A stretch of DNA of 64,000 nucleotides from Chitinophagaceae bacterium (GTDB lineage: Bacteria; Bacteroidota; Bacteroidia; Chitinophagales; Chitinophagaceae). Both the position numbers and the translations under genes were made by a program. The stretch covers positions 1 to 64,000 of the forward strand of contig CANHCY010000009.1 in assembly GCA_947459295.1 (NCBI GenBank), given 5' to 3'. Positions 48,135 to 64,000 of the stretch are shown here, in pieces. The notes under the pieces were generated by a model. It made no database searches. It was given only the letters and a program-made list of their open reading frames with translations, and was not told where the DNA came from. How positions within the stretch are numbered: the stretch's first letter is position 1; the number at the start of each line of letters is the position of its first letter.

Positions 48135-49034
48135 ATGGTTACCATTGCTTTTGATGATATCTACGCACATCCGTTACCGGAGAATCACCGGTTTCCCATG
48201 TTAAAATATGAGCTAATACCCGCTCAATTACTACATGAAGGCACTTACACTGCTGATCAGTTTTTTAAGCCTATAGCATGTGCCTCAGAGGTTGTATTAA
48301 AAACACATGATGCGGACTATGTTCAAAAATTAATATCCTTACAATTGAGTGCGTCTGAACAAAGAGCAATTGGTTTTCCTCAGTCAAAGGCCCTTATAGA
48401 AAGAGAGTTCATTATTACGCAGGGCACTATCGATTGCAGTATTGCAGCTTTAACAAATGGGATTGCACTCAATGTTGCCGGAGGAACCCATCATGCTTTT
48501 GCTGATAGAGGAGAAGGGTTTTGTATACTCAATGATATGTGTGTTGCAGCCAATTATTTATTAGAGCATAAGTATTGTAAGAAAATTATGATTGTGGATT
48601 TAGATGTGCATCAAGGAAATGGCACTGCAAAAATCATGGAAAATAATGATCATGTTTTTACATTTAGTATGCATGGTGCAACTAATTATCCATTTCGAAA
48701 AGAAAAATCAGATCTAGATATTGGGCTCGCTGATGGAACTACGGGCGAACTGTATTTATCTATTTTAAAGGATACGCTTCCTAAGTTAATGAGTCAGGAA
48801 AAACCTGATTTAGTTTTTTATTTATCGGGAGTAGATATTTTGGAAACAGATAAGTTTGGAAAACTAAAAGTAAGTTTAGAAGAATGCAAACGTCGGGACG
48901 AATTTGTACTATCAAGTTGTAAAAAAAATAATATTCCTGTAGTAGTAGCACTCGGAGGCGGCTATTCGCCAGATGTTAAAACAATTGTAGAAGCACATTG
49001 CAACACATTTAGATTGGCTGCTGACTTATTTTAA
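48135..49034 (+). CDS. Histone deacetylase-superfamily deacetylase
   Basis: This 299-residue zinc amidohydrolase belongs to the HDAC/AcuC/acetylpolyamine-deacetylase superfamily. Active-site features are GGTHHAFADRGEGFCILND (His119-His120 pair), IVDLDVHQGNG (zinc Asp and His), LSGVDILETDKFGKL (zinc Asp) and ALGGGYSP. Bacterial members remove acetyl groups from small amines or proteins; histones are not expected. It closes the small-ORF/membrane/desaturase run. Its TAA stop shares the tetranucleotide TTAA with the stop of the opposing TonB receptor gene. Confidence 0.93.
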   Translation: MVTIAFDDIYAHPLPENHRFPMLKYELIPAQLLHEGTYTADQFFKPIACASEVVLKTHDADYVQKLISLQLSASEQRAIGFPQSKALIEREFIITQGTIDCSIAALTNGIALNVAGGTHHAFADRGEGFCILNDMCVAANYLLEHKYCKKIMIVDLDVHQGNGTAKIMENNDHVFTFSMHGATNYPFRKEKSDLDIGLADGTTGELYLSILKDTLPKLMSQEKPDLVFYLSGVDILETDKFGKLKVSLEECKRRDEFVLSSCKKNNIPVVVALGGGYSPDVKTIVEAHCNTFRLAADLF

Positions 49035-51405: not shown

Positions 51406-52476
51406 ATGTTAAAGCGTTTGACGACTTTTACCGTTTTGATTCTCATATCAGATTATTGTTTTTCACAAAGTGATAGCACGGCTAAATTTAACGTGAGTGG
51501 ATATTTGGAAACTTATTATAGTTACGATTTTTTAAAACCCACAACAACCCCTAAGCCAGATTATAATTACAATTATAAAAACCACAATCAACTAAGTGTG
51601 AACTTAGCTTTTGTAAAAGCGAACTATACTTCTAATTCGTTTAGATCCAATTTGGCTTTGATGGTTGGAGATTATGCAAAATACAATTTAAGTACTGAGC
51701 CTGGTTGGGCCAAACCCTTGTTTGAAGCGAATGTTGGATTTAAACCCTTTAAGCAGCATAATATTTGGATTGATGCTGGTTTAATGCCTTCTCACCTTGG
51801 TTTTGAAAGCGCTATCGGTGGTGATTGTTACAATGTTACCAGGAGTATTTTAGCCGAAAATTCACCCTATTATGAGTCGGGTATAAAGGTAAGTTATACC
51901 GACCAAAAACAAAATTTATATATCGCTTTTTTAGTACTTAACGGGTGGCAAAAAATTGAAATGCCAGTTTCAAATTTTACACCAAGTGTAGGTGTTCAAA
52001 TAAATTACAAAGCCGTTAAAAACCTCACTCTTAACTATAGCAATTTTATTGGGAACGTAAACCTTGATCCTATTAAGGCACTCAGAACTTTTCATAATTT
52101 TTACGCTATATATGAAGCTACGGAGCGCAGCTCTTTTATATTTGGCTTTGATATAGGCACTCAAAAATCGAAACAAACAAATACTGCCATTTGGTATACC
52201 CCTGTAGTTATTTCAAAAATTAAGCTTAATAGTAAGCATACCATTGCTGGCCGGCTAGAGTATTATCATGATAAAAATGAAATCATCATTCCTACGGCTA
52301 CACTTAATGGTTATCAAACCTTTGGGGTATCTATAAATTATGATTATCAGATTTCGCCCAAAATGCTTTGGCGTGCAGAGCTGAAGCGCTATGCTTCAAA
52401 AGATCCGATATTCAAGTACACTCAACAGTACGGAAATCATACCGCTGCCACCATGGCGTTTATTGTAAGATTGTAA
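51406..52476 (+). CDS. Outer-membrane beta-barrel porin, BBP2/OmpL-like
   Basis: This 356-residue protein has a signal peptide (1-20, ending in CFSQ) and a beta-barrel throughout, ending in an aliphatic-aromatic pattern (MAFIVRL). The segments FNVSGYLETYYSYDF, HNQLSVNLAFVKANY and LFEANVGFKPFKQHNIWIDAGLMPSHLGFESA match the putative beta-barrel porin-2 family. Substrate and role are unknown. It stands alone, divergent from the heme-type receptor. TAATTTTG at 51394 resembles a Bacteroidota -7 element but lies only 4 bases before the start, so I do not call a promoter. Confidence 0.82.
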   Translation: MLKRLTTFTVLILISDYCFSQSDSTAKFNVSGYLETYYSYDFLKPTTTPKPDYNYNYKNHNQLSVNLAFVKANYTSNSFRSNLALMVGDYAKYNLSTEPGWAKPLFEANVGFKPFKQHNIWIDAGLMPSHLGFESAIGGDCYNVTRSILAENSPYYESGIKVSYTDQKQNLYIAFLVLNGWQKIEMPVSNFTPSVGVQINYKAVKNLTLNYSNFIGNVNLDPIKALRTFHNFYAIYEATERSSFIFGFDIGTQKSKQTNTAIWYTPVVISKIKLNSKHTIAGRLEYYHDKNEIIIPTATLNGYQTFGVSINYDYQISPKMLWRAELKRYASKDPIFKYTQQYGNHTAATMAFIVRL

Positions 52477-61457: not shown

Positions 61458-61886
61458 TTAAATCAATTGTAAACTAAAATATCCAATCGCTGTAAATATT
61501 GCACAGCGTAATAAAACGCCTAAACTGCACCAAAATACCATTTTGTTTGTTGGTACATTAAAACCAACACCGATACCAATACTTATTGGAGCTCCAACGC
61601 TCATCGTTCCCAATAAACCTAATCCGATGACACCATATTTCTCCCAAATTTTTAAGACAAATCCCGGTTCTTTAGCAACTTTATTAGCTTTCTGCTTTCT
61701 AAACTTACTCAGCCACTTTTTTATGATGTCACCAAGGTATGCAGCTACAAATACACCCATTAAACCGCCAAGTAGACTATAAGAGAAAATTTCTAACGGA
61801 TGAAGTTTAAAAGCAAATCCAGCTGGGATTGCTGCATAAATTTCAAAAGTAGCTAGACCAATTACAGTAAGAATCTTGTATACCAT
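61458..61886 (-). CDS. Small multidrug-export family membrane protein
   Basis: This 142-residue membrane protein matches the small multi-drug export family. It has three or four hydrophobic segments, the family-like FEIYAAIPAGFAFKLHPLEIFSYSLLGGLMGVFVAAYLGD in the first half, a basic cytoplasmic loop (KWLSKFRKQKANKVAKEP) and KYGVIGLGLLGTMSVGAPISIGIGVGFN in the second. Drug export is the database name only; function is poorly known. It precedes the TonB receptor by 11 bases on the same strand, so the two may be co-transcribed. Confidence 0.85.
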   Translation of the reverse strand: MVYKILTVIGLATFEIYAAIPAGFAFKLHPLEIFSYSLLGGLMGVFVAAYLGDIIKKWLSKFRKQKANKVAKEPGFVLKIWEKYGVIGLGLLGTMSVGAPISIGIGVGFNVPTNKMVFWCSLGVLLRCAIFTAIGYFSLQLI

Positions 61887-61960: not shown

Positions 61961-62530
61961 CTAATTGATTCCAAATAATTGGTATTTCAAATTTGTATTT
62001 AGATTGCTGTAATCATTTGATGTAAAAACAATACCATATTCGCCAGAGGGAATATTGTCAATTTCGATAATAATATATTTTTCTTTATATTTTCTATATG
62101 TAAAAGGAACCTTAGGGATTTCATTATTTTTAGTTCTAAATGCAGATGAAGTACCAGTTTGAACGATCCTTTGATCCTTACGATTTTCGCTTTCAAAAGG
62201 AATAATTTTTACACTTTGTTCTGGATCTACCATTATTGCAGGTTCGTAAATGAATTTGATACTATTTGTATTAAATCTTACTGGTGATTTTGCCTCATTT
62301 ATGAAGAGACTTTGTTTTGTTCCTGCAACTAATAAACCAACATATGGAACGAATGTGCCAGCTTTTGTTTTCACTTTTGTAGATGCTTCCTTTTTTTCTA
62401 GAGCAACTAATTTATCATTAATAACTGCATAAATTGTATTCACAAAATCAGGCGCAGGTATATTTTCAATTTCTTGACTAAATGAATTGATAGATAAAAG
62501 TAATCCAACTAGACACAATGTAAATTTCAT
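61961..62530 (-). CDS. Secreted protein of unknown function
   Basis: This 189-residue protein has a signal peptide (1-19, ending in SFSQ) and no lipobox or membrane anchor. The mature part contains VINDKLVALEKKEASTKVKTKAGTFVPYVG in its N-terminal half, suggesting an exposed helix, and a predicted beta-rich C-terminal half with IIIEIDNIPSGEYGIVF. No family is recognised. It is single, with a 74-base gap to the small exporter gene downstream, and its promoter side faces the terminator and tRNA remnant at 62.6 kb, so it is the last gene on the conserved side of that boundary. Confidence 0.72.
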   Translation of the reverse strand: MKFTLCLVGLLLSINSFSQEIENIPAPDFVNTIYAVINDKLVALEKKEASTKVKTKAGTFVPYVGLLVAGTKQSLFINEAKSPVRFNTNSIKFIYEPAIMVDPEQSVKIIPFESENRKDQRIVQTGTSSAFRTKNNEIPKVPFTYRKYKEKYIIIEIDNIPSGEYGIVFTSNDYSNLNTNLKYQLFGIN

Positions 62531-62593: not shown

Positions 62594-62636
62594 ATAAAAA
62601 GCCACTTACATTTATTTGTAGGTGGCTTTTTATTTT
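62594..62636. terminator. Strong hairpin terminator next to tRNA remnant
   Basis: AAAAAGCCACTTACA and TGTAGGTGGCTTTTT form a long stem (one G-T pair) around a 6-base loop, with A- and T-runs on either side. On the minus strand it sits just downstream of the tRNA 3' end, where the terminator of the original tRNA gene would be expected. Confidence 0.88.
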
Positions 62637-62642
62637 ATTAAG

Positions 62643-62684
62643 TGGGCCCACCAGGGCATGATCCTGGGACCCCCTGATTATGAG
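62643..62684 (-). other. 3' half of a CAT-anticodon tRNA; probable integration (att) remnant
   Basis: Read on the minus strand, the segment gives CTCATAA as an anticodon loop (anticodon CAT), TCAGG as the 3' anticodon-stem strand, GGGTC as the variable loop, CCAGG/CCTGG as a perfect T-stem, TGGGCCC as the 3' acceptor strand and A as the discriminator. The 5' half is absent: the bases before the loop (AAACC) cannot pair with TCAGG, and no GGGCCC acceptor strand is present to the right. The T-loop is ATCATGC in place of TTCRANY, so it is decayed. The tRNA identity (Met or Ile2) cannot be decided. A break exactly at the anticodon loop is typical of tyrosine-recombinase integration into tRNA genes. 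Confidence 0.75.
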
Positions 62685-62869
62685 GGTTTCTGGTGGTATT
62701 CTATACCTTTTCTTTTATTGATAATCAATAGGATACAAGATTGAAATAGATTTATATTTCTCATATTTCACCTCTTTTAACCTGTTTTTGATGAAAACTT
62801 TGCAGAGAACTTGGCAGGGAATACTTCCACCTTTAATTGGGTAAAATTGTAACTTGGTAAAAAAAGGAT

Positions 62870-63253
62870 ATGCAATACAAATTCATAGTTGAAATCGTAA
62901 ATAGTGACATGGACATCCTAAAGGAATCCAAAATTAAAGTTGAAGGGAAGTCTGAGTTGGACGCAAGGACGAAGTCTAAAAAATTGATTCTTAAAAAACA
63001 CCCTAAGTATGAGGAGGTGCAAATTCAATTAAGACCACCACTTACCAAGGAAGAAAAAAAGCAACTACCAATTCTACGAATTATCGATTATTTACAGAAG
63101 CAGATTTTACATACTAGGGACGCAAAAATTCATACAACTGCAACTCAAAAAAAATATGCTGAAAATAGACGTATTGCCTATAAGTTAGCGCTTCTTGAAT
63201 GTAGGAGAGGATTAAAAGAAGAAAAGAAACTCATTGGTAATAAAATAAAATAA
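62870..63253 (+). CDS. Lysine-rich hypothetical protein
   Basis: This 127-residue protein is strongly basic, with many lysines and arginines (RTKSKKLILKKHPKY, LTKEEKKQLP, LEEKK-type stretches), no signal peptide and no membrane segment. The first 55 residues look like a small beta-alpha-beta unit (QYKFIVEIVNSDMDILKES), the rest helical. No family is recognised; a nucleic-acid-binding role is possible from charge only. It is the first gene to the right of the tRNA remnant, and probably lies within the integrated element suggested there. Confidence 0.65.
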   Translation: MQYKFIVEIVNSDMDILKESKIKVEGKSELDARTKSKKLILKKHPKYEEVQIQLRPPLTKEEKKQLPILRIIDYLQKQILHTRDAKIHTTATQKKYAENRRIAYKLALLECRRGLKEEKKLIGNKIK

Positions 63254-63284
63254 GTTTTAGATTAGATTAGAAAAATAGAAAATC

Positions 63285-64000
63285 ATGAAAAAGAAAATCT
63301 TTAGCAATCTCAGATTTACAATGAAGAAAGGTTACTTTTTTCATTTATTTATTTTATTTAGTTTAAATGTTAATAGTCAATCTAATGAAACTTTTACAGA
63401 TATTGATGGCAATGTATACACTACAATAAAAGTTGGAAATCAAGTATGGGCTTTAGAAAATTTACGAGTAACAAAATTTAGAAATGGTGATCCTATTAAG
63501 ACTGTGGCACCTTCTCAATGGATTAAAGCCAATAATAGTTTATATTATAATTCAATTCCTGGCAACTTATATAATTGGTATGCCATATGTGACCCAAGAA
63601 ATATAGCACCTGTTGGCTGGCATGTTCCAACATTGAAAGAATGGGAAGAACTATTAAATACCATATCTAATGGGAATTATATTACTTCACGAGAAAACTA
63701 TAAGAAAAGTGAAAAAATAAGTTACGAGTTGGCGAAAAAATATAAAATGATTTATTATCAAACAACAAAAGAATACAGCCCAATTAAATTACCAAAGTTG
63801 GGGATTGGTATTAAAAACACAACCCCATTCAATCTATTTTTCGCAGGAAAAATAACAGAGGATGGAATTTATCAAACCGACTCTAGATACGATGTTGATT
63901 ATTGGACATCAACTGATTTAACATACATGTCTTTTAATCAACAAGCAAATTATCAATGGGAATATATTTCTGCATCCTCAAGAATTCCATACGAGGGTAA
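63285..64000 (+). CDS. FISUMP-domain protein, 3' end outside window
   Basis: Not in the ORF track because the frame runs off the right edge. An ATG at 63285 opens a frame without stops to base 64000; a second in-frame ATG at 63321 (MKKGYFFHLFILF) starts a signal peptide ending in NSQ and may be the real start. The mature part shows the Fibrobacter-succinogenes major paralogous (FISUMP) domain: FTDIDGNVYTTIKVGNQVWALENLRVTKF, YNWYAI and PVGWHVPTLKEWEEL. Such domains are common in surface proteins of Bacteroidota and Fibrobacteres, with unknown function. It follows the lysine-rich gene by 31 bases. Confidence 0.85.
   Translation, partial: MKKKIFSNLRFTMKKGYFFHLFILFSLNVNSQSNETFTDIDGNVYTTIKVGNQVWALENLRVTKFRNGDPIKTVAPSQWIKANNSLYYNSIPGNLYNWYAICDPRNIAPVGWHVPTLKEWEELLNTISNGNYITSRENYKKSEKISYELAKKYKMIYYQTTKEYSPIKLPKLGIGIKNTTPFNLFFAGKITEDGIYQTDSRYDVDYWTSTDLTYMSFNQQANYQWEYISASSRIPYEG

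Follow-up and report, generated by a model that had tools for sequence, protein, structure and literature searches.

The tRNA fragment at 62.64 kb of the window (the whole 64,000-nucleotide stretch of DNA analyzed) is very probably an attR-type junction, formed when the tyrosine recombinase of an adjacent module inserted DNA site-specifically into an elongator tRNA-Met gene. The same tRNA-Met site is a hotspot for tandem insertion in this genus of mostly uncultured Bacteroidetes. The window comprises positions 1-64000 of contig C9 (70,293 bp), which adds 6.3 kb beyond the window, and the source metagenome-assembled genome (MAG) totals 2.30 Mb in 94 contigs and is 83% complete. The features of the junction and of the DNA to its left are the following.

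61458-61886, minus strand: gene for a 142-aa protein, chromosomal anchor on the tRNA-downstream side, with homologues beside junctions in relatives
61961-62530, minus strand: gene for a 189-aa protein between anchor and junction, of patchy distribution
62594-62633, minus strand: terminator hairpin 3' of the tRNA half (MFE -18.2 kcal/mol, z -7.1, T-rich tail), either part of the chromosomal flank or a relic of an earlier unit
62642-62684, minus strand: displaced 3' half of elongator tRNA-Met(CAT), from position 32 to the 3' end (43-bp attR-type core)
62685-62729, minus strand: element end "X", 45 bp, ATTGATTATCAAT...GGTATAGAATACC...AACC, where a recombinase probably binds to arm- and core-type sites
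62717-62729, minus strand: ATTGATTATCAAT palindrome, putative arm-type site, conserved in X ends

The minus strand from 62684 to 62642 reads CTCATAATCAGGGGGTCCCAGGATCATGCCCTGGTGGGCCCAC, and all 43 of its 43 bases are identical to the 3' part of the intact tRNA-Met(CAT) genes of congeners. Across the break, an intact congeneric gene reads GGGCCTATAGCTCAGTTGGTTAGAGCACCTGA followed directly by CTCATAATC. Identity to the tRNA begins at CTCATAA, which places the break at the 5'-most base of the anticodon loop (position 32), and just 5' of this point the window has AACC whereas the intact tRNA has CTGA. In place of the tRNA 5' half, the window carries the 45-bp X sequence, ATTGATTATCAATAAAAGAAAAGGTATAGAATACCACCAGAAACC. 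The first-pass annotation had proposed a tRNA 3' half without a 5' half on the minus strand, broken in the anticodon loop and followed by a terminator, and each of these proposals is borne out. A tRNA finder run as it recommended, ARAGORN, called no tRNA anywhere in the 64-kb window. The hairpin at 62633-62594 is absent from the list of a simple terminator scan, and Rfam families over the region gave sub-threshold matches only, such as Thr_leader, that rest largely on this hairpin.

One earlier proposal has to be abandoned, namely that a decayed T-loop marks the event as old. The T-loop ATCATGC is present in 40 of 44 intact tRNA-Met copies and in 29 of 32 X junctions, and is thus a feature of the tRNA-Met of this genus rather than a product of decay. 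Since this T-loop is normal for the genus, it is no sign of age, and the inference of an old event falls; both the tRNA half and the X end are intact in the window. Other families of the order have the tRNA-Met T-loop TTCRANC. Relative to the usual T54-A58 pair, the elongator tRNA-Met of the genus has A54 and U58 swapped in the same 40 of 44 copies (L061-L110, L145-L174).

The junction recurs widely. A pattern of 60 bp covering X and core (ATTGATTATCAAT-N32-CTCATAATCAGGGGG, with no more than three mismatches) was searched in 147 congeneric genomes alongside the reversed pattern as a control. It returned 32 matches in 26 of the 147 genomes and the control returned none, and a chance origin of the junction is therefore excluded. 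In the 32 junctions, near-identical sequence precedes the core at the same spacing, whereas the cargo behind X varies. Most X junctions lie in genomes that lack an integrase of the window type. Of 28 distinct X ends, 25 contain a shorter motif, TTGANNNTCAA, which we suggest as a candidate arm-type site. So do 12 of the 36 distinct sequences 3' of intact tRNA-Met genes, where shuffling predicts 0.05, and the motif is seen behind intact tRNAs even when the genome has no X junction. Its use as a mark of elements alone was accordingly rejected, and its role as an arm-type site stays a suggestion for the same reason.

The DNA to the left of the junction is chromosomal, as judged by shared neighbors. 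Homologues of the 142-aa anchor with 94-95% identity lie tRNA-downstream of junctions in L093 and L098 (genomes G008 and G019), a further homologue is found in L148 (G119), and the window genes at 48135-49034 and 51406-52476 also have homologues in G008. The 189-aa gene was found in 4 of 101 genomes searched, its own included, and has a homologue in a tRNA-Arg/recombinase island of G020 (L088). Because of this patchy distribution and the homologue in the tRNA-Arg island, the gene may be older accessory DNA left by an earlier insertion. In the G020 island (L088:2370-7705), tRNA-Arg(TCT) is followed by tyrosine-recombinase-like and resolvase-like genes.

To the right of the junction, the element was followed past the end of the window, as the first-pass annotation had advised in the search for an integrase. 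The genes found there are listed with those of the window.

62870-63253, plus strand: lysine-rich 127-aa cargo gene, the first inside the element
63285-64364, plus strand: FISUMP cargo gene (Fib_succ_major, E = 4e-28), running past the window end at 64000
Contig 64432-65691, minus strand: 419-aa tyrosine recombinase, Phage_int_SAM_5 + Phage_integrase (PF13102 + PF00589), phrog_1 integrase, pointing at the junction
Between the integrase and HTH_17 genes, outside the window, minus strand: gene for a 125-aa protein
Contig 66077-66298, minus strand: HTH_17/Xis-like, 73-aa excisionase-like protein
Between the Xis-like and AAA-like genes, outside the window, minus strand: gene for a 109-aa HTH protein
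Contig 67011-67919, minus strand: AAA-like gene
Contig 67909-69513, minus strand: ParB-like/N6_N4 DNA methylase gene

Thus, the view that an element extends to the right of 62684 stands, with integrase, excisionase-like HTH and DNA methylase genes of which the first begins 0.4 kb beyond the window end. The assignment of the lysine-rich gene to the cargo is supported by a homologue that lies 198 bp from an X junction in L155 (G161); the 127-aa protein itself has no Pfam or PHROG match. In an alignment of six integrases from the tRNA-Met site, residues R369, H392 and Y402 are invariant. A sequence search against solved structures gave no match. The element part has a G+C content of 31.6%, and every 7.6-kb stretch sampled to the left of the junction is higher (33.1-39.4%). 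The element is cut off by the contig end at 70293.

Full-length integrases of at least 82% identity are confined to the source genome, G034 and G176, the two relatives with the module having identities of 82% and 87%. In all three of these genomes an X junction lies on the integrase contig with the integrase pointing at it, at a distance of about 1.75 kb in the window strain, 1.1 kb in G034 and 11.5 kb in G176. In other islands at the tRNA-Met site the recombinase is 0.1-0.2 kb from the junction, as opposed to the 1.1-11.5 kb of the window type. G034 holds most of the integrase module of the window. Cargo of a defence-like kind, restriction included, is found in both of these larger relatives of the window element, comprising GmrSD-N/HNH, a type IIG MmeI-like restriction-methylase, a DEAD helicase, a T5orf172 protein and HNH in G034 (L164:845-9003), and DUF2779, RmuC, AAA and WYL proteins in G176. 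G174 was considered as a fourth integrase-X pair and rejected, because its 37%-identical integrase adjoins a half with a different end.

Only one side of the island is visible, since the far-end locus is missing from the 83%-complete MAG. Intact copies of the same tRNA-Met were found in 95 of 147 congeners; in the source MAG, a motif search and the 24 tRNA matches listed yielded none. The upstream anchors, HflX and a HAD protein, are missing there or have only distant matches. Presumably the strain does have an intact tRNA-Met copy, and in loci of relatives such as L145, L148 and L152 the far end does carry an intact, directly oriented tRNA on the same replicon.

Comparison with related genomes that lack the insertion, another check that had been proposed, yielded an empty and a filled version of the site, although these belong to the locus of relatives and not to the window's own site. 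In G014, an uninterrupted tRNA-Met is followed by an asparagine-synthetase-like gene (cluster 80), and in G106, with the same neighbors, an insert of 6,299 bp separates the intact tRNA from an X junction. The flanks of the two are 93.4% identical over the 900 bp left of the core and 94.5% identical over 1.74 kb to its right. No genome examined carried the fragment and both flanking genes with no tRNA or integrase nearby, an arrangement that the first-pass annotation had named as contrary to integration.

Relatives also carry units in tandem. The array of G119 starts with an intact tRNA-Met and continues with three units (8.4, 2.5 and 0.5 kb) that each end in an X junction. At the tRNA-Met site, mapping gave 14 complete units, 0.5-8.4 kb in length, none of which contains a full-length integrase. 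A scan of 36 proteins (ORFs) from 13 complete units gave a single Phage_integrase match, a 192-aa protein of G119 consisting of the catalytic domain only. The remaining cargo includes FG-GAP proteins, alpha-amylases, a TonB receptor with phytase, a two-component system and a Fic protein. A 192/196-aa recombinase was rejected as a general helper, being present in G119 and G034 only. In G174, L062, L068 and L079 there are units that encode a recombinase of their own, 0.1-0.2 kb from a junction whose end differs from X. Several assemblies are broken at or near the repeats of the tRNA half.

Several other arrangements were noted around this site. Contig C2 of G174 (L173:3936-16500, L174) holds an array of three units, each with a different tyrosine recombinase and a different element end. 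A second end family (CACGATGAGACAATAAGAAACATTGATTTTCGGTT; L067:10114, L173:9227) occurs once with and once without a recognized integrase, the latter in G016 (L067). Two complete tRNA-Met genes with different T-loops lie about 2.2 kb apart in G138 (L151:8188-11581), with an X junction between them. Furthermore, a family of proteins of about 250 aa starting with MEVHH(P/S)HH has 48 copies at 18 loci around tRNA-Met, often several consecutively (L069, L083, L086, L091-L093, L098, L099, L152, L161, L162 and others).

In the integration mechanism that we favor, crossover would take place inside the 7-base anticodon loop CTCATAA, within which we infer the exact crossover bases, and would be catalyzed by a tyrosine recombinase, most probably the one of 419 aa encoded 1.75 kb away. 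The element would carry its own 43-bp 3' half, such that the tRNA is rebuilt at the far end and the original 3' half stays behind the X end of the element. Repeated entry by elements with the same target would then add unit upon unit in the interval from the rebuilt tRNA to the old half. That the window integrase made the window junction is probable, and its pairing with X is suggested by the three genomes in which the two occur together. Its distance from X and the location of most X junctions in genomes that lack it count against this view. An unlikely alternative to this pairing is that the junction bounds a short, integrase-less cassette mobilized in cis and composed of the lysine-rich and FISUMP genes, with the integrase module belonging to a second, adjacent element whose boundary has been lost or is unrecognized. 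The 14 units without a full-length integrase are consistent with such a cassette, as are the cargo genes that put 1.1-11.5 kb between X and integrase in three genomes and the 37%-identical integrase of G174 that pairs with a different end. However, there is no second tRNA half from X to the integrase on the window contig, nor any half between them in L103 or L162 within two to three mismatches, and X is the first junction at which the integrase points in all three species.

Two further explanations concern the nature of the fragment and of the element. Duplication can yield tRNA remnants, and only one end is visible in the assembly, so the half might be a chance or segmentally duplicated tRNA fragment unlinked to integration. 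This is highly improbable and refuted in practice by the recurring junction and by the filled and empty sites of relatives, as the same breakpoint with the 45-bp X is found in 26 genomes beside unrelated cargo, and an integrase gene is adjacent. A prophage or phage satellite in place of a genomic island is also improbable. The genes for Int, Xis-like, ParB-like/methylase and HTH proteins are reminiscent of the early regions of phages, and several proteins have PHROG matches. Against this, no virion structural gene was recognized among the proteins scanned from the window element and about 30 kb of the G034 relative, and the window integrase has no relative in viral_contigs, and its matches in phage records do not exceed 30% identity. 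Origins in a phage, a plasmid or a viral contig were set aside after searches found no close relative. No relaxase or conjugation gene was seen among the proteins scanned from an element that is incomplete on its contig.

Beyond site-specific integration at the window junction, a broader and tentative possibility, less probable than not, is that the X/tRNA-half units constitute a cassette system. Small integrase-less cassettes with one shared end would be moved in trans by rare helpers resembling the window element, and tRNA-Met would serve as a genus-wide, integron-like capture site that uses double-stranded tyrosine recombination. One end is common to units with and without an integrase, which makes trans-mobilization directly testable. 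Overall, a single tRNA gene acts as a genus-wide landing site in Bacteroidetes, and its conserved short X end eases the finding of units in fragmented MAGs even when no integrase is present. Because assemblies break at or near the repeats, the cargo is likely under-counted, and this applies to type IIG restriction, sugar enzymes, FG-GAP lipoproteins and two-component systems.

The window case is an instance of tRNA-targeted island integration with accretion, as in the ssrA islands of Dehalococcoides and in CIMEs, and no report of a tRNA-Met array in this group was found in the open-access papers searched. As in the tDNA islands cataloged by Islander (PMC4383910), where the anticodon-loop crossover class accounts for 2,083 of 3,919 islands, a 3' fragment is displaced, a tyrosine integrase is involved and the split tRNA would be rebuilt by the island. 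A 3' fragment identical to the intact tRNA, a tyrosine integrase in the island and an uninterrupted site in relatives, by which such islands are recognized, were all found here. However, Islander needs an integrase in each island, and most complete units at this tRNA-Met have none. The Dehalococcoides ssrA islands (PMC3146451) likewise lie in tandem downstream of a tRNA-like gene, about half of them without an integration module, and are bounded by 3'-end repeats with a conserved motif beside each. They rely on serine recombinases and the tmRNA T-loop, whereas tyrosine recombinases and the anticodon loop of tRNA-Met are used here. CIMEs formed by accretion (PMC5704250) also include integrase-less units that keep att sites and are stacked with autonomous elements, a description that fits the neighboring units in relatives and not the integrase-bearing window element; no conjugation gene was recognized here, and mobilization of the units is hypothetical. 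Integrons have an IntI integrase and recombine attC hairpin sites as single strands; the repeated sequences found here are halves of a tRNA, and the integrase has Phage_int_SAM_5/Phage_integrase domains. Tycheposons of Methylophilaceae (PMC10872708) and the additive flexible genomic islands of Alteromonas (PMC5217437) are likewise aquatic cargo islands at tRNA-Met or other tRNAs, with repeated tRNA 3' ends and variable cargo, although tycheposons, which have tyrosine recombinases and a replication module of their own, span 4-200 kb and most units at the tRNA-Met site described here are shorter.
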